A stretch of DNA of 64,000 bases from Pirellulales bacterium (GTDB lineage: Bacteria; Planctomycetota; Planctomycetia; Pirellulales; Thermoguttaceae). Below, piece after piece: positions 5,917 to 53,409 of this stretch. Position 1 is the stretch's first letter, and each line of letters opens with the position of its first letter. The notes under the pieces were generated by a model that saw nothing but the letters and a program-made list of their open reading frames with translations, did not search any database and was not told the origin of the DNA. The position numbers and the translations under genes are program-made. The stretch spans positions 62,001 to 126,000 of the forward strand of contig JAFGRD010000118.1 of assembly GCA_016935315.1 (NCBI GenBank), given 5' to 3'.

Positions 5917-6014
5917 TGTTTGCATTGTGAATGATCCAGGCCGACCAACGGGAGGCCGGACAAGTCGGGCTCCCGTTGGTCGGCCTTGTGCATTGAGTGT
6001 GCAAGCGTCAATAG
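5912..6014. repeat. Dispersed quasi-palindromic element, copy A
   Basis: A ~100-bp element with a left terminus ATTGATGTTTGCA and right terminus that reads ATTGACGCTTGCA on the other strand. The central arms GGCCGACCAACGGGAG face each other around a ~15-base loop. It overlaps the last codon and stop of the HEAT-repeat gene. Confidence 0.85.
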
Positions 6015-38173: not shown

Positions 38174-41100
38174 TTACCGCAACAGGGCCAGGACGTTTTG
38201 CGGGTTGCTGTTGGCCATCGACAACACCGAAACACCGGACTGCACCAGGATTTGTGCCCGGGTCAGGGCCGCACTCTCGGCCGCGAAGTCGGCGTCGCGG
38301 ATCGAGCTTTCCGCCGCGGTGAGGTTCTCCAGGGTGTCCTTCAACGAAGCGATGTTACTGTCGAGGGTCGTCTTCTGGAACGCCCCCAACCGGCCTCGAA
38401 GCGTGGTCACCTGGGTAATTACCTCATCGACCACGGAGGCCGCCCCGCCGACGTCGGTCCCCAGGTCCTTGGTGCCGCCGGACCGCAGCTCGTAGAGCCG
38501 GCCCGAGATGCCCCCCAGCTTGGCCGTGCTGACACTAGAGATTCCCAGTCGGGCCTGCTGGTTGGAGACCACATCGGGTCCCAACTGGAACTGGGCGCCA
38601 CCGCCGGTGATCTGGAAGTTCATTGTCGTGCCGGCGGCCACTCCCGAGTCGAGAGTGAAGCTCAGGTCGAGCACGGAGGTGTTCATCGAGACGTTCAACC
38701 CGTCGCTGATCGCCTGGATGCCGTTCAGCCGCACGTTGACGTCGCTGCCCGTGTCGCGGTCGGTGGTATTGCCGTCGGGATCGATCGTCTGGAGGGTACC
38801 GTCGAGCACTTTGACCGAGATGAACTCCTTCGAGCCGTAGTTGACCGACTTGAACGTCAGCCCGGTGGTGCCGATGACGTCGCCCTCGTCGTAGGCCCCC
38901 GACATGGCCACGGCCCCGTCGGCCGTCCCCGCATCGACCCGCCCACCGGTCAGCTTGCCGGTGTCGGTCGAATAGAGCGTGCCGGCACCGGTGCCCACGG
39001 CCGCGAGTCGGAACAGGCCATACTCCGTCGGGTTGTTGGCGGCCGTGTAGTTGGTCAGCACGTCGCTGAGCGTGCTGGTGCCGCTCTGGATGTAGATGTT
39101 CAGCTCTTTCGTGCTCGCGTTGTAGCTGACCCTTTCGTCGGCCGTACCGGCGGCGATATCCGGGTCGTCACGGAACACGATGCTGACATTGTCGTACGCC
39201 GCGCCGCCGGTGAGAGCAGTGACGGTCAACTGGGCATTTTCACCGCCGCGGTTGTTGGTGGTGCCGCCGGCATAGCCGTCCTGCTTGGTCACCCCGGCCT
39301 GCGTGAACGCGGTGCTACCGGTCTGCATCAGGCCGGAGCCATCGCTGGTGCCCACGTGGGATCCGGAGACATCCAGAGCTTGCAGCGTGGCAGAGTTGTT
39401 GATCGCCGTGACCACGTCGGCCGCCGTGCTGGTAATATTGCCGTTGGCGTCGGTGGCCAGGTTTACGTTGATCGCCGTATACTCATTCCCGCCGTCGGTC
39501 GTGGCGCTGGTGTTCTTGGTCAGCGCGCCACCGCCGGCCCCACCACCGAACACGCTGAAGGTGAACGAGTCACCCAAAGCGGCCGTGAGGTCGGTAACCA
39601 GCGTGGTCGCCGTCACGGCACCGCCGTCGTAGTTGCGGTAGATCTTGATGGTCTTGGCCTCGCGATCCCAGGCAATGCTGTTGTCGGTGGCGTCCTGCTC
39701 GAGCGAGATGGTGATCCCGTCGTATGCGGTGCCCTGCGTCTTTGACACGACCTTGATCGACGCATCGGCATTGGTGCCCTGCAAGATGGCCGTGGCATAG
39801 CCCCCCGTCTCGGCGTTTTGCGTGAAGTCCAGGCTCAGGGCCTGGCTGGTGCCGAGCGTCCGGAAGGTAATCGGTAGATCGGCCGCCGCGGCCGTGCTGA
39901 GCAGTTGGATCCGGTTGTTGGGTTCGGAAGTACCACCAGTGTTCTCGTTGCCGTAGAAGGCCGCATGGGTCACCAGCGTCACCGTGTCGGCCGACGTACC
40001 GGTGGCCGTCACGTTGGCGGCGACCGTCACATCGGTGTTGATCGCCGCTCGCACGTCCGTGATGCTCGCCAGCACGGCTCCGCCGTCCCGACCCCCCGCG
40101 CCCGTGGCACCGGTGAGGGCACTGGTTCCGCTCGCGGCGTAGGTAGTGGCCGTGTTCGTAGCTGTGGCCGTAAACAACTGTGCCAGCTTTGACCCGATCA
40201 GGCTCGCCGCGGCTCCTGCCGTGGCACCGACCTTGACCGTAAGCGTAAGGACGTTCGTATCATAGTCGTAGACCGCATTGGAGGCCGTAGGGGCCCCCGC
40301 GGTCAATACGTTTTCCTGCAAGGTCATGTTGTCGAACTGGGCGCCGCTGATCTGCGGCGTGATAACGAGGTCCGATCCCGACTGACTTGTTACAGCCACA
40401 CCCGCCGCGGCCGTCCAACTGAGCGTCTTGGCGGTGACCGTGATCTTGTTCACGTCACCCGTGCCGTCCCACGACGCAGTCGCAGCAGTGACGGGAGCCG
40501 TGGCCGCGGTGGTGGTCGTCGCGTACTCGATAGCGATGTTGCCCCCTTCGCGACCGACCGTATCGGCAGCGATCGTGATTACGCCGGTCGAGCCCGCCGT
40601 GGTCAGTTGGACCTCGCCGGTGCCGTCTGCCTGGGCGATATTGTAGTCGACCACGGCCTGCACACCCAGCGCGTCGGAGACCAGGTTGATGGCGGCCGCC
40701 ATCTCGCTGATCGTGCTGTTGGCGGCGAAGCTGAACGCCTCGAATCCCTTCGAGCCGCCGATCTCCAAGACCACGTCGTCGCTGATCGAACTGGATGTGT
40801 AGGCCAGTTCGGCCTGCTCGGCCTGGGCCACCACGTCCACGGTCACGTTGATCTGGGTCTGCGTGCCGAAGTTGGCCTGTTGGATCTCGAGGTTGGAGAC
40901 CTTCGTCGGATCGACGCTGGAAGTGACGAAGTCCAGGTTGCCGTCCAGAAGCCGCTTGCCCTGGAAGGACGTCACCTGGGCGATTCGGTCGATGGCTTCC
41001 AGCGACGAATCGACCTGCAACTGGTTGGCCGAGATCTGCTCCTCACTCATGGCGCCCGTGTTGGCCGCCTCGGAGACCAGACCGCGAATGTCGTTCAACA

Positions 41101-41359
41101 ACGAGCTGACCTGTCCCAGCGCGCTATCGGCGGTGGCGATCATTTGGTTGGCACGCTCACTGTTGGTAATGGCCCGCTCCACGCTGATCATGTCACTGCG
41201 GAGCACTTCGCTGGCGATCAAACCGGCCGGATCGTCTTTACCAACGTTGATCCGCAAACCGGTGCTCAGACGCGTGAGGGCCGTCTGCAAGTCCGCGTTC
41301 GACCGCGCAAGGGATTTCTGGGCGTTAAGTGAGCTGACGTTTGTGTTGATTCGTGTCAT
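38174..41359 (-). CDS. fliC: Giant flagellin
   Basis: About 1061 residues (typical 270-500). The conserved D0/D1 N-terminus (TRINTNVSSLNAQKSLARSN; LSTGLRINVGKDDPAGLIASE) and C-terminus (ESSIRDADFAAESAALTRAQ; ending MANSNPQNVLALLR) are intact. About 800 residues of Ala/Thr/Gly/Asp-rich surface domain lie between. ATG at 41359 follows AGGAGGGG; a GTG at 41368 is possible but lies too close to that site. Only one flagellin gene is in the window. A sigma-28-like promoter lies 250 bp upstream. It converges with the TPR-sulfotransferase. Confidence 0.95.
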   Translation of the reverse strand: MTRINTNVSSLNAQKSLARSNADLQTALTRLSTGLRINVGKDDPAGLIASEVLRSDMISVERAITNSERANQMIATADSALGQVSSLLNDIRGLVSEAANTGAMSEEQISANQLQVDSSLEAIDRIAQVTSFQGKRLLDGNLDFVTSSVDPTKVSNLEIQQANFGTQTQINVTVDVVAQAEQAELAYTSSSISDDVVLEIGGSKGFEAFSFAANSTISEMAAAINLVSDALGVQAVVDYNIAQADGTGEVQLTTAGSTGVITIAADTVGREGGNIAIEYATTTTAATAPVTAATASWDGTGDVNKITVTAKTLSWTAAAGVAVTSQSGSDLVITPQISGAQFDNMTLQENVLTAGAPTASNAVYDYDTNVLTLTVKVGATAGAAASLIGSKLAQLFTATATNTATTYAASGTSALTGATGAGGRDGGAVLASITDVRAAINTDVTVAANVTATGTSADTVTLVTHAAFYGNENTGGTSEPNNRIQLLSTAAAADLPITFRTLGTSQALSLDFTQNAETGGYATAILQGTNADASIKVVSKTQGTAYDGITISLEQDATDNSIAWDREAKTIKIYRNYDGGAVTATTLVTDLTAALGDSFTFSVFGGGAGGGALTKNTSATTDGGNEYTAINVNLATDANGNITSTAADVVTAINNSATLQALDVSGSHVGTSDGSGLMQTGSTAFTQAGVTKQDGYAGGTTNNRGGENAQLTVTALTGGAAYDNVSIVFRDDPDIAAGTADERVSYNASTKELNIYIQSGTSTLSDVLTNYTAANNPTEYGLFRLAAVGTGAGTLYSTDTGKLTGGRVDAGTADGAVAMSGAYDEGDVIGTTGLTFKSVNYGSKEFISVKVLDGTLQTIDPDGNTTDRDTGSDVNVRLNGIQAISDGLNVSMNTSVLDLSFTLDSGVAAGTTMNFQITGGGAQFQLGPDVVSNQQARLGISSVSTAKLGGISGRLYELRSGGTKDLGTDVGGAASVVDEVITQVTTLRGRLGAFQKTTLDSNIASLKDTLENLTAAESSIRDADFAAESAALTRAQILVQSGVSVLSMANSNPQNVLALLR

Positions 41360-41605
41360 TTCAGACACCCCTCCTTTTCAAGGATTACGTCCAAGCTTCA
41401 CCGGATTGCGGGGAGATCACGATTCCGGACCAGCTTCACTACGGGCCGCGTGCGAAACCTCTTGGCAGAGGACGACCCTGTAGTCGGATGTTTGTCTCCA
41501 GTTTCACGACGAACCAAGGCGCTGTCCGGAATCTTGGCCGACATGGTTATGCCGACCAACCGCGCTGCCTATCCCGCGCGGTGCTCGCCTGGCAGCGACC
41601 TACAT
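41360..41605 (-). promoter_or_regulatory. Long flagellin mRNA leader with several GGA motifs
   Basis: About 245 bases from the predicted start to the ATG. On the minus strand it contains at least five GGA triplets. One is inside the ribosome site, which itself sits in a short hairpin TCCTT-GAA-AAGGA (41384-41372). This is the arrangement expected for CsrA control; binding is inferred. Confidence 0.45.
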
Positions 41606-41800: not shown

Positions 41801-41906
41801 ATTAGGCAGCTCTGCCCGGTCAATGCGCGACGGCGACCACCGGGGGGTCTGATGCTCCCGGCCTCCGCTGGGTCGGCCTTGATCATCCGCCATGCCGACA
41901 TCAATA
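41801..41906. repeat. Dispersed quasi-palindromic element, copy G
   Basis: Inverted orientation, diverged right part: GTCAATGCGCGACGGCGACC at left, GGGTCGGCCTTGATCATCC at right, end GACATCAAT. Its terminus supplies the TGA stop of csrA copy 2. Confidence 0.8.
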
Positions 41907-42155
41907 GCCCCCCGGGGCCTTCTCCGATTCAGCAGCGTTTGGACACGGATGCCCTTCGGTCTGCTTCGCCTCCAGACCAGCCGCCTGACGGTTCTCTCGT
42001 TGGATCGCGTCGTAGACCTCTCTGCGGTGAACGGGGATTTCGCCTGGGGCGTCGATGCCCAGCCGGACTTTGTCTCCACGAATATCGACGATGGTCACGA
42101 CGACGTTGTCGCCGATCACGATGCTTTCATCGCGTTGTCTGGACAAGACAAGCAT
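41901..42155 (-). CDS. csrA: Translational regulator CsrA, copy 2
   Basis: 84 residues. [20 protein letters not shown] start and [23 protein letters not shown] core keep the RNA-binding residues. The C-terminal ~25 residues are an extension unlike that of copy 1. It lies immediately upstream of the flagellin gene on the same strand, the classical position for flagellin-specific CsrA control. The stop codon is formed by the edge of element copy G, so the tail may be altered by that insertion. Confidence 0.95.
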
Positions 42156-42722
42156 CGATGGCTCCTTCCTTGGTCATGTCGGCAAAGCGGCCGAATCCTA
42201 CGCGCTTCGTCTGTACGTTGTTCGTTCGCTTCCCCGTGCATACCGGACTGCCCAATCGCCGATGGCCGCCACCCTGCCGTCTCCAGCGACCTTCCAGTAG
42301 ATGACCACGGATCATGGAAACGCACATAGAGTCTATCGGTTCAGGCAATTACGGCGGGCCAGCAAAAATAATTAGTGCGGGCTATTTGGCGAACGCGGCG
42401 ATGCAGGGCGAACTAGGGAGCCGCACAGACCGTGCCGTCACCTCTCACGCGCACTCCGACAACAGGCAGTAGCCGATGCGAATCGGTGCAGTCACCCCAT
42501 CAGTCCCGTGCGCGGAAGTTGGCGACTGCACTGCAACCGGTCGGTGATCTCAGCGCAACGGATCGGCGATTTCGGCGCCACCGATCGGCAACAGTCGCGC
42601 GTTGCGGGTCGCGAGAGCACGAACGGTTGCCTGCATCGTTTCCCGCGCAACCGGCGCAAGTCCTTTCGGGCACAACGGTTCGTCGTGGAACGAGAGGCGC
42701 TGGACCGCTCGTCATGTTCATC
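42156..42722. other. Divergent regulatory region between csrA copy 2 and the flgF operon
   Basis: No gene supported. Contains the 22-bp direct repeat array (42535-42600) and, at its right, the sigma-54 promoter. AT-rich patch AAAAATAATTAG near 42365. Confidence 0.5.
42535..42600 (+). promoter_or_regulatory. Array of three 22-bp direct repeats, probable enhancer-binding sites
   Basis: Units 42535-42556, 42557-42578 and 42579-42600 share the core GGATCGGCGAT (variants GGTCGGTGAT, CGATCGGCAAC) with exact 22-bp spacing, i.e. the same helix face. A weaker fourth unit may precede. They lie 124-190 bp upstream of the -24 element, where sigma-54 activators bind. Confidence 0.55.
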
Positions 42723-42738
42723 TGGCACGCCGATTGCT
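42723..42738 (+). promoter_or_regulatory. Sigma-54 promoter of the flagellar rod/hook operon
   Basis: TGGCACGCCGATTGCT matches the sigma-54 consensus TGGCAC-N5-TTGCT at every conserved base. GG and GC are exactly 10 bp apart. It lies 76 bases before the flgF ATG. A 6-bp hairpin GCGCAC/GTGCGC (42757-42773) lies in the leader. Confidence 0.8.
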
Positions 42739-42813
42739 AATTGCAGCCCGCCGACGGCGCACCCGAGGTGCGCGGGCAACAGGGGAGCGTCCCCAGACAT
42801 ACCCGAGGCGACC

Positions 42814-43572
42814 ATGCCCTACGGCTTCTACGTATCGGCTGAAGGTGCCCACGCTCAGAATACGCGGCTGGACGTGATCGCCAACAATCTGGCGAACATC
42901 GACACGGTGGGGTTCAAGCGTCAGTTGGCGCTGTTTCAGGCAAGACACGCCGAGGCAATCGAGGAAGGCCTGGTAGCCCCCGGCACCGGCGGGATCGACG
43001 ACATCGGCGGGGGCGTGATGGTCGAGGAGACGAAGACCGACTATTCGATCGCGCCCTGGAAACATACCAAAATTCCCACGGACGTGGCCATTCGAGGCGA
43101 TGAGGGATTCTTCGTGGTCCAGAAAGACGACGAGGAATTCCTCACCCGGGCCGGCAATTTCCAGATCACCGTGGACGGCCGTCTCACAACACCCGAAGGC
43201 TATTCCGTGCTCAACAGCACCGGCGCACCCATCGTGGTCAATCCGTTCGATCCGGTGCTGGAGATCGACCACTACGGAAACGTCCGGCAGACGGGGCTCG
43301 TCCAGGAATTGGCGCTGGTCAAGCCGGAGTCACTCGACGAGTTGGTTCGAATGGGCGAGAACCTGTTCAAGCCGCTTTCCGATCCCCAGCCGCTTCCGCC
43401 GAACGAACGGGGAGTTGCCTCCGGCTACTTGGAGACGTCGGGAGTGCGCGCGACCTGGGAAATGACGGAGATGGTCAAGGCGGCCCGCATGTTGGAGGCC
43501 AACGTGAACCTGATGAAGACACAAGATGAGATGCTCGGCGGGCTGGTCAACCGTGTGATGCGCACCCGGTAG
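42814..43572 (+). CDS. flgF: Flagellar proximal rod protein FlgF
   Basis: 252 residues. N-terminal rod motif LDVIANNLANIDTVGFKR and C-terminal VRATWEMTEMVKAARMLEAN are the FlgF/FlgG family ends. The central hook-like domain has IRGDEGFFVVQ and LTRAGNFQI. The start at 42814 follows GAGG; the frame further upstream is leader sequence containing the sigma-54 promoter. First gene of the operon. Assigned FlgF because a closer FlgG follows. Confidence 0.9.
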   Translation: MPYGFYVSAEGAHAQNTRLDVIANNLANIDTVGFKRQLALFQARHAEAIEEGLVAPGTGGIDDIGGGVMVEETKTDYSIAPWKHTKIPTDVAIRGDEGFFVVQKDDEEFLTRAGNFQITVDGRLTTPEGYSVLNSTGAPIVVNPFDPVLEIDHYGNVRQTGLVQELALVKPESLDELVRMGENLFKPLSDPQPLPPNERGVASGYLETSGVRATWEMTEMVKAARMLEANVNLMKTQDEMLGGLVNRVMRTR

Positions 43573-43620: not shown

Positions 43621-44424
43621 ATGAGTATTCAAGCACTCTATTCGGCTGCCACCGGCATGTCGGCCATGGAAACCAAGTTGGACGTGGTGGCCAACAACCT
43701 GGCCAACATGCAGACGACCGGCTTTAAGAAGGGCCGCGCCAACTTCGAGGACCTGATCTACCGGCACGAGCGGTTGCCGGGGGCCGAAGACTCCGCCGGG
43801 CAATACACGCCCACCGGGATCTCGATCGGCCTTGGTACCCGCGTCTCCAGCATCCAGGGCGATTTCGAGCAGGGCCCGTTTCTGCTTACCGGCGAGCAAC
43901 TCGACGTGGCCATTCAGGGAGCGGGGTTCTTCCAGGTGGCGGACCCCAACGGAGACATCTACTACACGCGTGCGGGCAACTTCTCGCTGAATGCCAACGG
44001 CGACATCGTCATGGGCTCGGCGGGCATCGGCCGGTTGCTCGAGCCTCCGATCACCCTCCCCACCGATGCAACCGATATTTCGATCAGCCCCGAAGGCGTG
44101 GTGTCGGTCAGGGTACCCGGCGACACGTCACTGAGCCAGGTCGGTCAGATCGAGCTGGCCCATTTCGTCAACCCGGAAGGGCTTTTGAGGCTGGGAGAGA
44201 ACTTGTTTTCCGAGACGGACGCCTCGGGCTCGGCCTTGCTGGCCAATCCCGGCCAGGACGGTCTCGGAACGCTCCAACAAAACGCATTGGAATCCTCCAA
44301 CGTCGATCCGGTCGAGGAGCTGATCGGGCTAATCACCACCCAGCGAGCGTTCGAGCTCAACTCGAAAGCCATCCAGGTCGGCGACGAGATGCTGCAACTG
44401 GTCGCCAATTTGAAGAGGTTCTAG
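43621..44424 (+). CDS. flgG: Flagellar distal rod protein FlgG
   Basis: 267 residues, close to the E. coli length of 260. MSIQALYSAATGMSAMETKL, then DVVANNLANMQTTGFKKGRA with the FEDLIY segment, and the C-terminal VDPVEELIGLITTQRAFELNSKAIQ are diagnostic. It forms the distal rod outside the inner membrane and is exported through the flagellar type III apparatus without a cleaved signal. 48 bp after flgF. Confidence 0.95.
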   Translation: MSIQALYSAATGMSAMETKLDVVANNLANMQTTGFKKGRANFEDLIYRHERLPGAEDSAGQYTPTGISIGLGTRVSSIQGDFEQGPFLLTGEQLDVAIQGAGFFQVADPNGDIYYTRAGNFSLNANGDIVMGSAGIGRLLEPPITLPTDATDISISPEGVVSVRVPGDTSLSQVGQIELAHFVNPEGLLRLGENLFSETDASGSALLANPGQDGLGTLQQNALESSNVDPVEELIGLITTQRAFELNSKAIQVGDEMLQLVANLKRF

Positions 44425-44510: not shown

Positions 44511-45623
44511 ATGCAACGTTGGCAACGGTGGAAACACGACGGGACCGGCGTCTTCCCGTCCACGAGGTGTCTGGTGCTCGCGGCCGTGGTTTTCGGAATT
44601 GCCGCCGCCGGGTCGCGAACCATGCCGGCGGCCGAATTCCGATTGCGCCCCCAATATCAGAGCGACGGAACGCTGGTCACGCTGGGCGACGTGGCCGAGA
44701 TCTTCGCTACCGATCGGCAAGAGGCCGAGGCCTTGGCCGCCGTCGAGCTGTTTACACCTCCGACCACGTCGCGGGAACGTCTCGTCCGGTTGCGCGAGAT
44801 TCAGGACTTGTTGTTGCTGCGCGGCGTGAACCTGGCAGAGCATCGGTTTTCCGGATCCAGCCAGGTGACGATTCTCGGCGGCAGTCCCCCGGCGCCAAAG
44901 GAGCCCCAGGAGCGAACCTTGACGCCTTCGGTGGCAAGAAGGACCGACAGTCTCGTGGGCGAGGCCATCGTGCAATACCTCCAGCACAGCGTCTCGGCGA
45001 CCCAGTCCTGGAAGGTCGACGTGGCGTTGAATGCGGACCAGGCCAGGTTGGTTTCCCAGTCGGGCCAGGTGGTGTCGATTGCCGGCGGCGCGCCGCCCTG
45101 GACGGGCTTGCAGCGGTTCACCCTCACCGTCGAAACGTCCCGCGGACCGACCCAACTGCTTCTGCAGGCCCACGTCTCGTTGCCGTTGGCGGTGGTCGTG
45201 ACGGTCAGGCCGCTGATGCGTGGTACGCTGCTGCGCGCCGCCGACGTCGAATTGAAGCGGGAATCGCGACAAGACACCGATAGCACCCTGTTCTACTCGA
45301 TTGACGAGGTCGTCGGAAAAGAGATCACTCAGTCGATCCCCAAGGGGCAAGTCTTGCGGCCGCGCATGCTTCGCGCGCCGCTGCTGGTCCGTCGTGGCGA
45401 CGTGGTAACCGTATGTGCCCGCTGCAACGGCATCCTGGTGCGCACGACGGCTCGGGCGCGCGACGACGGAAGTCTCGGCGAGTTGATCGCGGTCGAGTCG
45501 CTGCAAGACCGTCAGAGGTATTACGCACGGGTCAGCAAGATCCGCGAAGTGGAGGTTCTTGCCCGCCCCGTTCAAGCCGGACAGGACGAAGTCCGCCGAC
45601 CGTCCGACGCCATGTGGCGATAG
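44511..45623 (+). CDS. flgA: P-ring assembly chaperone FlgA
   Basis: 370 residues, longer than usual (~220) because of an N-terminal extension. Signal-anchor VLAAVVFGIAAAGS near residue 22. The C-terminal SAF-like domain is characteristic: PLMRGTLLRAADVELKR, IDEVVGKEITQSIPKGQVL, then VVTVCARCNGILVRTTARARDDGSLGE. It acts in the periplasm to help FlgI polymerise around the rod. 86 bp after flgG. Confidence 0.9.
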   Translation: MQRWQRWKHDGTGVFPSTRCLVLAAVVFGIAAAGSRTMPAAEFRLRPQYQSDGTLVTLGDVAEIFATDRQEAEALAAVELFTPPTTSRERLVRLREIQDLLLLRGVNLAEHRFSGSSQVTILGGSPPAPKEPQERTLTPSVARRTDSLVGEAIVQYLQHSVSATQSWKVDVALNADQARLVSQSGQVVSIAGGAPPWTGLQRFTLTVETSRGPTQLLLQAHVSLPLAVVVTVRPLMRGTLLRAADVELKRESRQDTDSTLFYSIDEVVGKEITQSIPKGQVLRPRMLRAPLLVRRGDVVTVCARCNGILVRTTARARDDGSLGELIAVESLQDRQRYYARVSKIREVEVLARPVQAGQDEVRRPSDAMWR

Positions 45624-45659
45624 TCGGCGTGCATGGAAATGCGAAAGGAAGAAAACGTG

Positions 45660-46343
45660 ATGATCCTACGTTGGGGACGAATCCGCTGCGTGCTGCTGGT
45701 CTGCCTGGCCTGGTCTTCGGCGGCCGCCACGCAGAGTTGGGCCCAAAACTCCAGCCTGCTGAGCCGCTCCACGCAGCGCCGGCCGCTGACGTTGCAGGAT
45801 TACTCGTGGACCTATCAGGCTGCGCTCGAACCCAACAAGTTCGAGGCAAACGACCTGATCACCATCCTGGTCAAGACCAGATCGACGGTCATCAGCGAAG
45901 CGGAGACCGATCGCAAGAAGAAGGCCCACGCGACGGCTATCTTGAAGGACTGGGTCCTCTTAAAGGGGCTCACGAAGATCGTGCCCGACCCTCAGAGCGC
46001 GGGAGATCCCACGGTGGCTGCGTCGCTGGACAACAAGATGAAGTCGGAAGGCGGGTTCGAGTCTCTCGACTCGATCTCGTTCACGATCGCGTGCCGAGTG
46101 ATCGAGATTCGCCCCAACGGGAATCTGATCCTGGAAGGCCGCCGCACGATCGAGAACAACAACGAGATGTGGAACCAGGCGCTGACCGGCGAGGTCCGTC
46201 CGGAGGACGTGCAGCCGAACAACACGGTGCTGAGCGAGAACGTGGCCGACCTGCGGATCCGCAAATGGGAGGCCGGCAGCGTCCGTGACAGCTACCGCCG
46301 CGGCTGGTTCCTCCGCTGGTTGGACATGTATCAGCCTTGGTGA
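45660..46343 (+). CDS. flgH: Flagellar L-ring protein FlgH
   Basis: About 227 residues. The FlgH core is seen in FEANDLITILVKTRSTVISEAET, ACRVIEIRPNGNLILEGRRTIE and LSENVADLRI. The ATG at 45660 (or the GTG three bases before) follows AGGAAG. The leader (CVLLVCLAWSSAAATQSWAQ) looks like a signal-peptidase I site, not a lipobox: no Cys is preceded by L-A/S-G/A, although enterobacterial FlgH is a lipoprotein. It forms the outer-membrane L ring. Confidence 0.9.
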   Translation: MILRWGRIRCVLLVCLAWSSAAATQSWAQNSSLLSRSTQRRPLTLQDYSWTYQAALEPNKFEANDLITILVKTRSTVISEAETDRKKKAHATAILKDWVLLKGLTKIVPDPQSAGDPTVAASLDNKMKSEGGFESLDSISFTIACRVIEIRPNGNLILEGRRTIENNNEMWNQALTGEVRPEDVQPNNTVLSENVADLRIRKWEAGSVRDSYRRGWFLRWLDMYQPW

Positions 46344-46407
46344 ACAGTCTCTCGGCGAAAACCTTTTGTCGACAACGTCAATGCGGTGAAACAGAGGACA
46401 CCCGACC

Positions 46408-47472
46408 ATGAAGTCCCACCGGATCCACCTGCTGCTGGTGCCTGCCATCATCTTCACGTCGTGGGCCTTCACGGCGCCGGCCCCGGCACAAACCGTGCTG
46501 AAGAGCATTTGTCGCGTGAAGGGGCAGGAAGAGAACACGCTGCAAGGGCTGGGAATCGTGGTCGGGCTGAAAGGCACCGGCGACGGCGGGGACTTCCTTC
46601 CCACGATCAACAGCCTCGCCAAAATCATGACCGTGATGGGCGAGCCGCCCAGCTCTGGCGGACTTGCCGAACTGAAGGACGCCAAGAACGTGGCTCTGGT
46701 AGCCGTCACGGCGACCGTGCCGGCCGCCGGGGCACGCCAGGGCGATAAGATCGACTGCATGGTCAGCTCGATCGGGCCCGCGAAGGATCTGACCGGCGGG
46801 CGGCTCTTCCTCACGCCGCTGGTCGGTCCCGACCGCCATGACCCGACCGTGTACGCCTTCGCCGACGGCCTCCTCTCGATAGAAGACTCCACCGTCCCCA
46901 CCACGGGACGCGTCCACGCCGGTTGCCGGCTCGAAGCCGATTTCTTCAACCCCTTCGTCAAGGACGGCAGGATCACCCTGGTGCTCGACGCCAATCACGC
47001 CGACTTCGAGGTTGCCCAGAGCGTTGCCGAAGAAATCAACAAGAGCCTGGGATTCGGCACCGGCAGCCAGGATCTGGCCAAAGCGATCGACCAGTGCAAC
47101 ATCATCGTGGCCATTCCCAGTGAATACCGCGAATCTCACGTCATGTTCGTCTCCATGGTCCTCGGCACCCCGATCCGCGAACCACAGCCCGGCGCCCGCG
47201 TAGTGATCAACGAGCGGACGGGAAGCATCGTGATCAGCGGCGAGGTCGAAATCGGAGCGGTGGTGGTTACGCACAAGAACATCGTCATCGAGACGGGCGC
47301 CCCGGCCGGCGGCGGCTTCGTTCCCCTGGACCCCGGACAAACCTCCAAACCCAAGCTCGATGCGCTGGTCAAAGCCCTCAACGCCGTTCACGTTTCGACC
47401 GGAGATATCGTCGACATCATCAAGGGCCTGGATCGCAACGGCAAACTCCACGCCCAGTTGATTTTCGAGTAA
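46408..47472 (+). CDS. flgI: Flagellar P-ring protein FlgI
   Basis: 354 residues. Signal peptide to about residue 28, then the FlgI signature: SICRVKGQEENTLQGLGIVVGLKGTGD in the N-terminal part, VAVTATVPAAGARQGDKIDC in the middle and DALVKALNAVHVSTGDIVDIIK at the C-terminus. Forms the periplasmic ring around the rod in the peptidoglycan layer. It sits between its partner flgH (64 bp) and flgJ (29 bp). Confidence 0.95.
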   Translation: MKSHRIHLLLVPAIIFTSWAFTAPAPAQTVLKSICRVKGQEENTLQGLGIVVGLKGTGDGGDFLPTINSLAKIMTVMGEPPSSGGLAELKDAKNVALVAVTATVPAAGARQGDKIDCMVSSIGPAKDLTGGRLFLTPLVGPDRHDPTVYAFADGLLSIEDSTVPTTGRVHAGCRLEADFFNPFVKDGRITLVLDANHADFEVAQSVAEEINKSLGFGTGSQDLAKAIDQCNIIVAIPSEYRESHVMFVSMVLGTPIREPQPGARVVINERTGSIVISGEVEIGAVVVTHKNIVIETGAPAGGGFVPLDPGQTSKPKLDALVKALNAVHVSTGDIVDIIKGLDRNGKLHAQLIFE

Positions 47473-47501
47473 AGGCAGGCCGACCTGCCGGGAGAGTCTC
47501 G

Positions 47502-47822
47502 ATGAACGTCAACCTCGCAAGCCTCGCCACGACCGACGCCCTGCAGGGCCCTTTGCAGCCGGCGAAACCGGCTCCGCCCGGGAACGAAAATGACGCCGAA
47601 TTGCGCGACACCTTCAACTCGTTCGTGGGCGAGTCCCTGTTCGGACAGTTGCTCAAGGCGATGCGCAAGACGGTCGGCAAGTCGGCCTACTTCCACGGCG
47701 GCCAGGCCGAAGAGGTCTTTCAGCAACAGCTCGACCAAGTCCTCGCGGAGAAGCTCACGGAAGTCAGCGGCGAAAAGTTCAGCGAGCCGATGTTCGCGCT
47801 GTTCCAGCAGACCCGCATCTGA
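47502..47822 (+). CDS. flgJ: Rod-binding protein, FlgJ N-domain only
   Basis: 106 residues corresponding to the N-terminal rod-binding half of FlgJ (FNSFVGESLFGQLLKAMRKT; AEEVFQQQLDQVLAEKL). The muramidase half of enterobacterial FlgJ is absent, as in many other phyla, so peptidoglycan opening must come from another enzyme. 29 bp after flgI. Confidence 0.85.
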   Translation: MNVNLASLATTDALQGPLQPAKPAPPGNENDAELRDTFNSFVGESLFGQLLKAMRKTVGKSAYFHGGQAEEVFQQQLDQVLAEKLTEVSGEKFSEPMFALFQQTRI

Positions 47823-47968
47823 CCTGCAATTCCGCTAGCACGCTCCCACAGCCGACACCCGGCCGAACCCAAGGGAACGCGGAAACCCGCGTTGGACCCG
47901 CAGAAGAACACCTCCCCCCACATGGAGCCCGGTCCTTGATCGCCCCCCCAGTCAAAGAAGGCAAGTCG

Positions 47969-48454
47969 ATGGAAGCTTCTCTGGAATCCGAAGTGGCCAA
48001 GCTGTTGACCGATTTGTCAGTCGTCCAGGACGAGTTGCTGGAAATGCTGACGGAGAAGGGCCGGTTGCTGGCGGCGGTCGATCTCGCCGGCCTGAACGCC
48101 ATCGCTCCCCAAGAGCAGGCACTGATCAACTCTTTGCAGGATTGCCTGCAGCGCCGCCAGGACTTGCTCGACCGGGCCAGCCGCCAGGGGCTTCCTTCGG
48201 TGAGCATTCGGGCGCTTGCCCAGGCGCTTCCTCAGGCCCAGCGCGGCCCGCTGCACGAGCAGGTCAAGCTGGCCGGCTCCCGCGCCCGACTCCTGAAGCA
48301 CCATAGCCTGACCAATTGGGTGGTAATCCAACGCACACTGATACACCTTTCCCAGATGTTAGAGATTATCGCGACTGGCGGCCGTTTGCAGCCGACATAT
48401 GGAGAGGGTAAACCGGTCCATGCGAGCGGCGCTCTCGTAGACCGGGAAGCCTAG
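47969..48454 (+). CDS. flgN: FlgN-like flagellar export chaperone
   Basis: 161 residues, all-helical: VAKLLTDLSVVQDELLEMLTEKG and LNAIAPQEQALINSLQDCLQRR give the FlgN coiled-coil pattern. The C-terminal helix NWVVIQRTLIHLSQMLEIIA resembles the FlgK/FlgL-binding part. Its position just before flgK and flgL, its clients, supports the call. The ATG at 47969 (AAGG upstream) is preferred to the TTG at 47936. No flgM gene is seen next to it. Confidence 0.75.
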   Translation: MEASLESEVAKLLTDLSVVQDELLEMLTEKGRLLAAVDLAGLNAIAPQEQALINSLQDCLQRRQDLLDRASRQGLPSVSIRALAQALPQAQRGPLHEQVKLAGSRARLLKHHSLTNWVVIQRTLIHLSQMLEIIATGGRLQPTYGEGKPVHASGALVDREA

Positions 48455-48493
48455 GGGATATAGGGGGGTTCGCGAAAACGCGAAGCATAGATC

Positions 48494-50203
48494 ATGTCTC
48501 TGTTCAGCTCCATCCGGATGGCGGCCAACACGCTGCGGGCGATGGACATCTCCCTGCAGGTGACTGGCCAGAATATCGCCAACGCCAACACGCCGGGCTA
48601 CATTCGCGAGGACGTGATCCTCGCGCCGTCTCCCACGCAGCGCGTCGGCGGTCTGCTGCTGGGCACGGGCGTCGACGTCGAGGCCGTGGTTCAGAAGATC
48701 GACCATTTCCTCGAAGAGCGCCTCCGCGGATCCGTCAGCGACCGGATGGACGCCGAAACTCAGGAGAGCAGCTACCAGCAGTTGGAGGGAGTGATCGGAG
48801 AGCTCAGCGACACCGACTTGAGCACTGCGCTGAATACGTTCTTCTCCGGCATCGCCGAAATCCTCAACCAGCCCGAAAGCGTCTCGGTCCGCAACCTCGC
48901 GGTTCTGCAGGGCGGCACGTTGACCGACGGCATCAACCGGATGGCCGAGCGGGTGTCGACCATTCGCGCCGACACCAATGATCGCATTATCGACATGGCC
49001 GATAGCATCAATCGCCTGGTGGAGCAGATTCGGGAGCTCAACGTCCGGATCGCCAACACGGAAGGGGGCGACGTGTCGAGGAGCGACGCGGTCGGGCTGC
49101 GGGACCAACGGCTCCAGGCGATGGAAGATCTGGCCAAGCTGATCGATATTCGGGTGCGGGAACAGCCCAGTGGGGCGGTGGTCGTCTATTCCGGCAGCGA
49201 TTTCCTGGTTTTCGAGGGAATCGCCCGCGAGGTCGAGGTCGTGCTCGACAGCGATCGAGGCCTTTCCGTGGCCGACATCCACATGGTCAACACCGACGCC
49301 CCGATCGATCCGGCCGCCGGTGAGCTCCGGGGTCTGCTCGACTCCCGCGACAACATCATGGGCGATTTCCTCGACCAGCTCGACGAGTTCGCCCGAACCT
49401 TGGCGTTCGAGTTCAACAAGATCTATTCCTCGGGCCAGGGCCTGAATGGATACGGGGCGCTGACCAGCGAGTTTGCCGTCGACGATATCAACGAGCCGCT
49501 GAACGACGCCGGGCTGCAATTCACGCCGGTCAACGGGTCGTTCCAGGTGCTGGTCCACAACAGGCAGACCGGCGAGACCCAAACGACCGACATCTTCGTC
49601 GACCTGAACGGCCTGGGCAACGACATCACGCTGGACGGCACGACCGGCCCCTCGCTGACGGCCATGCTGGACGACATCGACGGGATTTCGGCCAGCACCA
49701 ACAGCGGCAAGCTGACGATCACCAGCGACTCCCCCGACCACGAATTCACGTTTGCCAACGACACCAGCGGCCTGTTGGCGGCGCTGGGTTTGAACACGTT
49801 CTTCAGCGGCTACAATGCCGCCAGCCTGGGCGTCAACGCCGTGCTTCAGCACGACCCCGCCACCTTCGCCGCCAGCAACGCGGGGATCGGGGCCGACACC
49901 GGCAACGCCATTGAGCTTGCCGTCTTCCTCGACCACCCCATTCAGTCCCAGAACAACGAGACCTTGGCCGTGATGTACGACCGCATGATCGGCGAGACTA
50001 CCCAGGCGGCCTCGATCACGCGGGCCGTGGCCGACGGCGCCCGCGTCTTTGAAGACACGCTGCGCGGGCAGAAGCTGGCCGTCAGCGGCGTGAGCCTCGA
50101 CGAGGAAGCCGTGCGGATGATCTCGTATCAGCGGTCTTACCAGGCGTCCGCGCGGTACATCGCCACGCTCAACGAGCTGTTCGGCGTCCTGGTCAGCATA
50201 TAG
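48494..50203 (+). CDS. flgK: Hook-filament junction protein FlgK
   Basis: 569 residues, normal length. The N-terminus (MDISLQVTGQNIANANTPGY) and C-terminus (VSGVSLDEEAVRMISYQRSY, then ASARYIATLNELFGVLVSI) are canonical. Between them are FlgK helices (IIDMADSINRLVEQIRELNV; VGLRDQRLQAMEDLAKLIDI). It is the first of the two junction proteins, exported with the help of FlgN. 39 bp after flgN. Confidence 0.95.
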   Translation: MSLFSSIRMAANTLRAMDISLQVTGQNIANANTPGYIREDVILAPSPTQRVGGLLLGTGVDVEAVVQKIDHFLEERLRGSVSDRMDAETQESSYQQLEGVIGELSDTDLSTALNTFFSGIAEILNQPESVSVRNLAVLQGGTLTDGINRMAERVSTIRADTNDRIIDMADSINRLVEQIRELNVRIANTEGGDVSRSDAVGLRDQRLQAMEDLAKLIDIRVREQPSGAVVVYSGSDFLVFEGIAREVEVVLDSDRGLSVADIHMVNTDAPIDPAAGELRGLLDSRDNIMGDFLDQLDEFARTLAFEFNKIYSSGQGLNGYGALTSEFAVDDINEPLNDAGLQFTPVNGSFQVLVHNRQTGETQTTDIFVDLNGLGNDITLDGTTGPSLTAMLDDIDGISASTNSGKLTITSDSPDHEFTFANDTSGLLAALGLNTFFSGYNAASLGVNAVLQHDPATFAASNAGIGADTGNAIELAVFLDHPIQSQNNETLAVMYDRMIGETTQAASITRAVADGARVFEDTLRGQKLAVSGVSLDEEAVRMISYQRSYQASARYIATLNELFGVLVSI

Positions 50204-50403: not shown

Positions 50404-53400
50404 ATGGGTTCGGTCATCGGCATCCCCACCACGCGCGTTAGCGACTTGTTCGTCCGCCAGCGGCTGCTCAGCCAGGTCCAGCGCGACCAGCTCGACATGT
50501 TCAGCCTGCAGATGCAGTTGAGCACGGGGCACCGTTTCCAGGTTCCCAGCGAAGACGCCGACGCCGCCCAGCGGGTCATCGGCCTGCAGCGTCTGCTGGA
50601 GCGCAAAGAGCAGGTGCAGACCAACCTGACCACCAATCAGTCGTACCTTTCCGCAACCGACACGGCCTTGTCCACAATCTCCGACAGCATGGCCGAGGTT
50701 CGTGCCGTGGCCCTGGGCGTACTGGGGACGATTGCTTCCGACACCCAACGCGAGGCCGCCGCGCAGCAAGTGCGAGAGACGATGCGGCAACTGGTCGATG
50801 CCGGCAACCAGCAGTTCCGCGGCCGGTACCTGTTCACCGGCACCAACACGATGATCCAGCCGTTCGGTGCGACGGAAAGCGGCGCCGTGGAATACTCCGG
50901 CAACGAGGGGCGACTCTCCAGCTACTCCGACATCGACCTGTTGTTCGATACGAACCTGCACGGCGTCGAAGTCTTTGGAGCCCTTTCGGACGCCGTGCTG
51001 GGCACCGTAAACCTCGATCCGGCTCTGACCTTCGACACGCGCCTGTGCGATCTCAACGGCGGCCAGGGCATCGCCTCCGGAAGCATCGCCGTCTCCAACG
51101 GCACCCATACCAGCACGATCGATCTCACCTCGGCCGAGACAATCGGCGATGTCGCCGCGATCATCCACGCCCATCCGCCCGCCGGAACGACGCTCGACGT
51201 GCAGGTCACCGCTACCGGACTGGTCATCCAACTGAACGGGGCGCCGGGCGACCTGCTGACGATCAAGGAAGTGGGCGGGGGGACCACGGCCCACGACTTG
51301 GGAATCCTCACCACCACCGGCGTCGGCGCGCCGGTCGTCGGCGAAGACCTGGACCCCATCCTTCGCGGGACCACCCGGCTGAACAGTGTCTTGGGAACGC
51401 GCGCCACGGCCCTGGTCCCCTCGGCCGGCAACGACAACGACCTGATCTTCGAAGCCCCCGAGGTCGGGACCTCGTTCGACGGCATCGAGATCGATTTTCT
51501 CGACGACGGCTCCGTGGTCGCCGCCGGCAACGAGGTGGCTACCTACGACGACGCCACGCGCACGTTGACCGTAACCGTCCTGACGGGCAAGACCCAGGCA
51601 CGGCACGTGGTGGCCGCCGTGCAGACAGCCTTCGACGCGGGCACCGTCCCGATTACCGCCCGACTCAATCCCCTGGATGATCGCTATGGCGGAATCGGCC
51701 CCATTGAAGTCCCGGCGCCCGGCGTGCCGGCCGGCACCACCGGTGGCGGCAGCGGAACCCGCTTTGACCAGGACATGGGGCTGCAGATCGTCAACGGAAA
51801 TCGGACCCACGTGATCGACTTCGCCAACGCCGAGACGATCGAAGACGTGCTCAACGCGCTGAACATGTCCGACGCCGGCGTGCTGGCCCAGATCAACGAA
51901 AACGCCACGGGAATCGACATCCGCAGCCGGCTCAGCGGGGCGGATTTCATGATCGGCGAAAACGGCGGCGCCACGGCCACCCAGTTGGGTCTGCGCACCT
52001 TCGCCGCCAGCTCCCGGCTGGAAGACTTCAACTACGGCGACCCCGACACGGGTGTCGGCGGCATTGCCGCACAACCAGGCACCGACTTCACGATCGGCGC
52101 GGCCGACGGCACGACGCTGGAGATCGACGTCAGCACCGCGGTCACCGTCCAGGACGTTTTGGACACGATCAACAACGCCGTCGATCCCAACACCGGATTG
52201 ACGCAGACGGTCGTCACAGCCCAGTTGGCTGCCTTCGGCAACGGCATTGAACTGCTCGATACGTCCGGCGCCGTGGGACCACTCACGGTCCACCGGGAAC
52301 CGCCCTCGCTGGCGGCCATCCGCCTGGGACTGGTGCCCGAAGGTCAAGAAGACAACTCCGCGGCCGCGCCTCCGCAAGCCGCCACCGCGACCATCGTCTC
52401 GGCGGCGGTGCGCAGCAACCTGGTGTTTACGGCCAATCATCCGGGCACGGAATACAACGGGGTACGGGTCGTTTTCGAGGACGGCGGCTCGCCGGGCGTG
52501 AACTTCGACCAGGACGCCGGCACGCTCACCTTCGGAATTACCGCCGGGGTGACCACGGCCGCCGATATCATCGACACGCTGAATGGCAGTTGGGCCTCCG
52601 CCCACTTCAGCGCCACGCTCGACCCCACCGACGCCACCAACGACGGCAACGGCAACGTGGCCGACGCGGGACCGCTTCCCTTCGCCGGCGGCGCGCCCGG
52701 CACTTCGGCCGCCGCGGCGGTAGCCTTTCCCGGAACCGACAACGACGTGATCCTCACCGCCGCAACCGGCGGCGACGGCACGCCCTGGAACGGCACCAAC
52801 GTCGTCTTCAGCGGCGTTCCCGGCGGCCCTATCGGCTTCGCCTCCGTGCCCGGCACGTTGACGATCACCTACGACTCTGCCGGCACCACGGCCCAACAGG
52901 TCGTGGCCAACCTGATGGCCGACGTGGGGTTTACGGCCAATTTCACGATCAGCCTCGATCCGGCCGATCCCGCGCCCAACGACGGCAGCGGCCCGGTCGA
53001 CCCGACCGACGGCTACGCGGCACCCATGGCCGGCGGCACGGAGACCCTGGTCGGCGCCGACACCAATCCCCTGGAGGTCAAGGGTCTGTTTACGGCCCTG
53101 TTGCGGCTGGAGGTGGCGCTGCAGACGGACGACCCGCTGGAGGCCCAACGCGCCATCGCCCTGTTGGACGAGCACACGCTGAATATGAACTTCGCCCGGG
53201 CCGAACTCGGCGCCCGCCAACAGGGCCTCGACATCATGCAACAGCGGCTGGAAACCGAAGAGATCGATCTGAAGACGGCCGTCTCCGAAGACTTCGATGC
53301 CGATCTGGTCCAGGCGATCTCCGACTTCACGGGCCGGCAGGTCGCCTTCGAGGCCGCGCTGCGGGCCACCGCCGAGATCTTCCAGATGACGCTGCTGAAC

Positions 53401-53409
53401 TTCCTTTGA
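50404..53409 (+). CDS. flgL: Hook-filament junction protein FlgL, oversized
   Basis: 1001 residues, about three times the usual length. N-terminus (LDMFSLQMQLSTGHRFQVPSE; GRYLFTGTNT) and C-terminus (NFARAELGARQQGLDIMQQR; ISDFTGRQVAFEAALRATAE) are standard. The ~700-residue insert carries hook-IN-like modules (NGTHTSTIDLTSAETIGDVA; DVLNALNMSDAGVLAQINEN) and two or three Asp/Gly/Asn-rich repeats (LDPTDATNDGNGNVADAG; LDPADPAPNDGSGPVDPTDG). It is presumably surface-exposed at the filament base. Element copy H separates it from flgK. Confidence 0.9.
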   Translation: MGSVIGIPTTRVSDLFVRQRLLSQVQRDQLDMFSLQMQLSTGHRFQVPSEDADAAQRVIGLQRLLERKEQVQTNLTTNQSYLSATDTALSTISDSMAEVRAVALGVLGTIASDTQREAAAQQVRETMRQLVDAGNQQFRGRYLFTGTNTMIQPFGATESGAVEYSGNEGRLSSYSDIDLLFDTNLHGVEVFGALSDAVLGTVNLDPALTFDTRLCDLNGGQGIASGSIAVSNGTHTSTIDLTSAETIGDVAAIIHAHPPAGTTLDVQVTATGLVIQLNGAPGDLLTIKEVGGGTTAHDLGILTTTGVGAPVVGEDLDPILRGTTRLNSVLGTRATALVPSAGNDNDLIFEAPEVGTSFDGIEIDFLDDGSVVAAGNEVATYDDATRTLTVTVLTGKTQARHVVAAVQTAFDAGTVPITARLNPLDDRYGGIGPIEVPAPGVPAGTTGGGSGTRFDQDMGLQIVNGNRTHVIDFANAETIEDVLNALNMSDAGVLAQINENATGIDIRSRLSGADFMIGENGGATATQLGLRTFAASSRLEDFNYGDPDTGVGGIAAQPGTDFTIGAADGTTLEIDVSTAVTVQDVLDTINNAVDPNTGLTQTVVTAQLAAFGNGIELLDTSGAVGPLTVHREPPSLAAIRLGLVPEGQEDNSAAAPPQAATATIVSAAVRSNLVFTANHPGTEYNGVRVVFEDGGSPGVNFDQDAGTLTFGITAGVTTAADIIDTLNGSWASAHFSATLDPTDATNDGNGNVADAGPLPFAGGAPGTSAAAAVAFPGTDNDVILTAATGGDGTPWNGTNVVFSGVPGGPIGFASVPGTLTITYDSAGTTAQQVVANLMADVGFTANFTISLDPADPAPNDGSGPVDPTDGYAAPMAGGTETLVGADTNPLEVKGLFTALLRLEVALQTDDPLEAQRAIALLDEHTLNMNFARAELGARQQGLDIMQQRLETEEIDLKTAVSEDFDADLVQAISDFTGRQVAFEAALRATAEIFQMTLLNFL

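Follow-up and report, generated by a model that had tools for sequence, protein, structure and literature searches.

Kinase-activator pairs, such as FlrBC of Vibrio, FleSR of Pseudomonas, and FlgSR of Campylobacter, switch on the sigma-54-dependent rod and hook genes (PMC7064773). NtrC-family activators of sigma-54 flagellar promoters are also represented by FlbD of Caulobacter crescentus, whose site (ftr) is CCCGGCA-N5-TGCCGGG, and by DVU1063 of Desulfovibrio, whose site is GGCA-N4-TGCC (PMC3333781). The activity of FlbD is governed by FliX instead of a kinase (PMC3096577). For the Planctomycetia, sigma-54 control of the flagellar basal-body genes has already been predicted from promoter scans (PMC12316311). 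A candidate activator, its putative binding motif, and the geometry of the sites are added to these predictions here. In a literature search, the scope of which does not include a 2004 study of Pirellula enhancer-binding proteins, no paper naming the activator or the motif is found.

In this study, the control region of the flgF-K operon is analyzed in a 64-kb stretch of genomic DNA, which is referred to as the window, and in related genomes. Judged from sequence comparisons, this region very probably consists of a sigma-54 promoter and phased dyads that are recognized by a kinase-coupled activator encoded next to flgB, with the flgB operon and a small gene as co-targets.

Operon and putative sigma-54 promoter

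The operon is encoded on the plus strand and begins with flgF (42814-43572), which is followed by flgG (43621-44424) and by flgA, flgH, flgI, the gene for a rod-binding protein of the FlgJ type, flgN, and flgK (44511-50203). The best match of FlgF is TIGR02490 with 160.1 bits, which is just below the cut-off of 178.5 bits, and FlgG matches TIGR02488 with 343.5 bits. The Pfam matches of the remaining proteins bear out the gene content flgF-G-A-H-I-(rod-binding)-flgN-flgK that had been read from the DNA beforehand. The divergent neighbor of the operon is csrA (41901-42155, minus strand), and the dyad pair described below is located 0.4 kb upstream of it.

Two very long flagellins of 1063 and 1001 residues, encoded at 38174-41368 (minus strand) and 50404-53409 (plus strand), flank the csrA/flgF-K region. 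The window also contains nine copies of an interspersed repeat, AAGGCCGACCAACGGGAGGCCGG, with at most three mismatches, whereas none is expected from shuffling. These copies are located at 5937, 5965 (minus strand), 9578, 27377, 29466 (minus strand), 41858 (minus strand), 50295, 53474 (minus strand), and 58780, such that one copy lies directly past csrA and another lies between flgK and a flagellin gene. The exact form of AAGGCCGACCAACGGGAGGCCGG is absent from the scanned collection of genome contigs and corresponds to no Rfam family, and an Rfam search of the window gives no match.

The putative sigma-54 (-24/-12) promoter of flgF, TGGCACGCCGATTGCT, is located at 42723-42738 on the plus strand, with the exact GG-N10-GC spacing, and the ATG codon of flgF at 42814 is 76 bp downstream of it. 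A match to the sigma-54 consensus is no proof by itself, because TGGCAYN5TTGCW occurs 15 times in the whole 7.1-Mb genome, as compared to 11 times for the reversed control pattern. The position of this site is conserved in relatives. A search of 147 other genomes detects FlgF orthologues in 76 (E below 1e-30). The upstream DNA could be read at 68 loci, one of which is that of the window, and at 56 of these a sigma-54 site (score of at least 9.5 out of 12, with GG and GC invariant) lies no more than 160 bp from the start codon of flgF. The loci without a near site include all seven that were read from genera g9, g10, and g43, where FlgF is 40-45% identical. Genus g39 is also among the exceptions, and the enhancer motif is located further upstream there. 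The rpoN gene, the presence of which had been suggested as a check, is present in the genome as a single copy (PF04552, E 4.7e-62, G000:C87). The first-pass annotation, which assigned the control region of the flgF-K operon to the sigma-54 type, largely holds at the level of sequence, and neither a lack of rpoN nor a lack of conservation in relatives, each of which would have refuted it, is observed. Several of the 15 consensus sites of this genome (L006, L013, and L014) are located 5' of genes that are plausible for sigma-54 control and that are read by eye as those for an ammonium transporter, groEL, and a small heat-shock protein.

Predicted enhancer dyads

Three direct repeats with a spacing of 22 bp had been noticed upstream of the promoter. 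This spacing is confirmed, because a score of 26 matched positions is obtained for the three 17-mers starting at 42540, 42562, and 42584, a value that is not attained in any of 500 dinucleotide shuffles. However, the repeats do not represent three equal sites, because two of them score well and the rest are degenerate. The distal dyad ATCGGCGATTTCGGCGC (42562-42578, plus strand) has its center at -152 from the sigma-54 site and scores 14.5 bits with a matrix excluding the window, and the proximal dyad ATCGGCAACAGTCGCGC (42584-42600, plus strand) has its center at -130, 22 bp from that of the distal dyad, and scores 16.6 bits with the same matrix. When a matrix built only from the other families is used, the scores are 13.7 and 15.9 bits respectively. 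The degenerate third repeat GTCGGTGATCTCAGCGC (42540-42556, plus strand), located 22 bp upstream of the distal dyad, is visible by identity but scores less than 7 bits, and its functional role is doubtful. A fainter fourth repeat GTTGGCGACTGCACTGC (42518-42534, plus strand) is seen by eye in the same 22-bp register, likewise at less than 7 bits, and has probably decayed or arisen by chance. The repeat core originally proposed, GGATCGGCGAT, is misplaced, with the conserved dyad unit lying approximately 3 bp to the right of it.

A de novo search of the 300 bp preceding each sigma-54 site yields the motif ATCGGCAAGTTCTGCC with a log-likelihood of 312, as compared to 76 to 86 in shuffled sets. This motif is a 15-bp dyad, CGGCA-N5-TGCSG, the conserved unit of which can also be written as CGGCR-N5-YGCSN. 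With the matrix excluding the window, at least two dyads scoring 7 bits or higher are found within 300 bp in 50 of the 56 promoters. The spacing of the dyads has its mode at 22 bp, with 37 neighboring pairs 20-23 bp apart, and their positions concentrate at -160 to -120. The usual geometry in the order is two dyads approximately 22 bp apart that are centered, relative to the sigma-54 site, near -153 and -131. When the region from -180 to -100 is searched with a matrix derived from other families, a site is found in all 25 promoters of the same family (two sites in 19), as compared to one of the 25 control windows and about 0.9 on shuffling. When the direction is reversed, 23 of 30 promoters have a site and 15 have two, with at most one in the control. 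The repeats are kept in the relatives with a fixed geometry, and the predicted promoter and paired dyads are conserved across the whole order. The enhancer proposed by the first-pass annotation is regarded as real and conserved, because the dyads are found de novo across the order and the sites in the window score well with a matrix to which they did not contribute.

A strict double-dyad scan of the genome of the window gives no excess over the control, because the sites of this genome diverge from the rigid pattern. The strict double-site pattern combined with the sigma-54 pattern matches five genomes over the class, all of which belong to the same order, and has no control match, but it is too strict for judging the range of the arrangement.

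Candidate activator and histidine kinase

The genome encodes 16 full sigma-54 activators. The C-termini of all of them were profiled over 15 genomes, and that of the best candidate over 148 genomes. Only the activator encoded at G000:C30:50141 is present in the flagellate genomes bearing the motif and missing from the sampled non-flagellates. In the 148 genomes, the activator and flgF are found together in 64, flgF alone in 13, the activator alone in seven, and neither in 64 (Fisher 1e-20, a statistic that ignores phylogeny and is applied to genomes many of which are incomplete). Twelve of the 13 genomes with flgF alone belong to genera g9, g10, and g43. At the seven loci read from these genera, the sigma-54 site near flgF is missing in every case and no dyad reaching 12 bits is present at six of them, and flagellar control appears to be rewired there. 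These loci (L108-L114) keep flgF in the absence of the activator, and one of them, L112, retains a strong dyad.

The activator consists of a receiver domain (Response_reg, 111 bits), a Sigma54_activat domain with the GAFTGA motif, and a Fis-type helix-turn-helix (HTH_8). The gene immediately before it encodes a histidine kinase with HisKA and HATPase domains, in which no sensor domain is recognized. This kinase gene adjoins the activator gene at 20 of the 20 loci examined, and flgB is found downstream of the activator gene at 18 of them. In the genome of the window, the next operon downstream is flgB-flgC-fliE-fliF-fliG. A gene for a flagellar AAA+ activator, for which a search had been recommended, therefore exists and co-occurs with the sites. 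The earlier expectation of an activator similar to FlrC or FleQ is correct as far as FlrC/FleR is concerned, because the receiver is coupled to a kinase. It is not correct for FleQ, which has a degenerate receiver without a partner kinase, whereas the receiver analyzed here is well recognized and the kinase gene is adjacent. The two-component activator encoded beside flgB is likely the flagellar switch of this lineage, with a link between activator and motif that is correlative. In another order of the class, an orthologue of the DNA-binding end of the activator, with a nearly identical recognition helix, is encoded beside flgB in several genomes. No convincing dyad pair is found 3' of the activator gene in this second order.

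Other predicted targets

In the genome of the window, two dyads of 19.1 and 18.8 bits, which are 24 bp apart, and the sigma-54-like site TGGCGCGCCGCTTGCA are located between the activator gene and flgB. The same arrangement of dyads and sigma-54 site precedes flgB in relatives. A pattern search for a dyad and a sigma-54 site led to a small gene at G000:C91:8811-9302 (L237:1501-1992), the dyads of which score 13.1 and 18.4 bits and lie, relative to a sigma-54-like site, exactly at -153 and -131. This arrangement is common to many relatives. In this genome, the -24 element preceding flgB and that preceding the small gene read GC in place of AC. The 164-residue protein encoded by the small gene represents a family found in 41 genomes, all 41 of which have the activator. 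The copy in the genome of the window has no Pfam match. Its structural model shows five helices after a disordered start, with a mean pLDDT of 74.6, and has no match among the solved folds in the PDB. This protein is a candidate for a new flagellar protein, as suggested by its predicted regulation and its distribution.

Discussion

The mechanism proposed for the flgF-K control region is modeled on NtrC-family activators with respect to phosphorylation, binding, and activation, and is fitted to the sites with their spacing and conservation, and to the co-occurrence, the gene order, and the domains described above. The sigma-54 polymerase would wait at 42723-42738 as a closed complex. The histidine kinase encoded by the adjacent gene would phosphorylate the receiver-AAA+-Fis activator, and the activator, as a dimer or oligomer, would bind to the two CGGCA-N5-TGCSG dyads 130-152 bp upstream. 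A distance of 22 bp corresponds to two helical turns and would place both dyads on one face of the helix. The activator would then oligomerize and loop the DNA to the polymerase, and its GAFTGA loop and ATP hydrolysis would open the promoter, such that transcription would start near 42748. The same activator would also drive flgB-flgC-fliE-fliF-fliG and the small gene through sites of this type.

The circuit thus outlined resembles FlrBC, FleSR, and FlgSR in that a HisKA-HATPase kinase is combined with an activator consisting of a receiver, a GAFTGA-bearing AAA+ domain, and a Fis-type helix-turn-helix, and in that the pair is linked to and co-occurs with flagellar genes. It differs from these systems in that its genes are located directly upstream of flgB and in that its predicted targets include fliF and fliG, whereas the MS-ring genes precede kinase action in the polar-flagellate systems. 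The logic of the checkpoint, at which the kinase of those systems senses the MS ring and the export apparatus, may therefore differ here, because fliF itself is among the predicted targets. The dyad CGGCA-N5-TGCSG matches the FlbD site, which suggests that an order-wide flagellar two-component sigma-54 circuit of the FlrBC/FleSR/FlgSR kind operates with FlbD-type sites. Unlike in the FlbD system, the receiver of the activator described here is canonical, a histidine kinase is co-encoded, and the two sites are held in a fixed 22-bp phase at -131 and -153. The activator scores 335.9 bits against the NCBIfam FlbD equivalog, the cut-off of which is 750 bits, and the FlbD model is not its best overall match. 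It is not to be classed as FlbD, because this cut-off is missed and because FlbD is under the control of FliX, whereas a kinase is co-encoded here.

Several other explanations are to be weighed against the flgB-linked activator acting at the dyads. Points against this activator acting there are that the window's own dyads fall short of the family consensus in strength, that the -24 elements of flgB and the small gene deviate as described above, and that the strict double-dyad scan shows no excess. The repeats might reflect chance or a structural repeat in GC-rich DNA, and the promoter might be one of many chance matches, as the near-equal frequencies of the sigma-54 consensus and its reversed control in the genome would allow. 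This explanation is refuted by the conservation of both elements across the order at a fixed spacing, and by their near absence from the genera without the activator, and has hardly any probability left. Alternatively, the divergent csrA might be the main gene served by the dyads, or the dyads might repress transcription instead of activating it. The orientation of csrA is compatible with this possibility, FlbD of Caulobacter is both an activator and a repressor (PMC3930126), and csrA has been reported to be under sigma-54 control in Pirellula (PMC12316311). However, csrA is rejected as the target of the dyads, because no convincing sigma-54 site facing it is found upstream of csrA. Moreover, few of the scanned relatives have a csrA-like gene beside flgF, whereas the dyads remain with flgF. 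A role of the dyads mainly in csrA expression or repression is thus very unlikely, though less so than a chance origin.

An explanation that retains somewhat more weight, but is still improbable, is that the dyads bind another activator or a regulator unrelated to sigma-54, and that the flgB-linked activator acts elsewhere. An example is L054, which has the best FlbD-like helix-turn-helix. The C-terminus of L054 scores 36.5 bits with the FlbD model, slightly above the 31.8 to 34.1 bits of the flgB-linked candidate, and the NCBIfam scores of the helix-turn-helix do not decide which activator is to be assigned. However, L054 orthologues are also present in non-flagellate relatives, whereas the flgB-linked candidate alone tracks flgF, and its neighbor flgB bears strong dyads. 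The flgB-linked, kinase-coupled activator is therefore preferred.

A wider generalization is offered as a tentative possibility. A CGGCA-N5-TGCCG dyad code, together with an NtrC-family activator, might be common to the Alphaproteobacteria, Desulfovibrio, and this order, where it would also control the MS-ring operon and a new flagellar protein. If so, the shared dyad code would represent an ancient or repeatedly re-evolved pairing of activator and site. For the order itself, a concrete activator and a DNA code are proposed for flagellar control, for which the literature found gave genome-wide promoter predictions only. The conserved site matrix provides a means of finding genes of the flagellar regulon, uncharacterized ones included. 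If the lineage belongs to the Planctomycetota, probably to the Pirellulales, its cells alternate between swimming and sessile forms, and the circuit is therefore a candidate for the switch between these forms.
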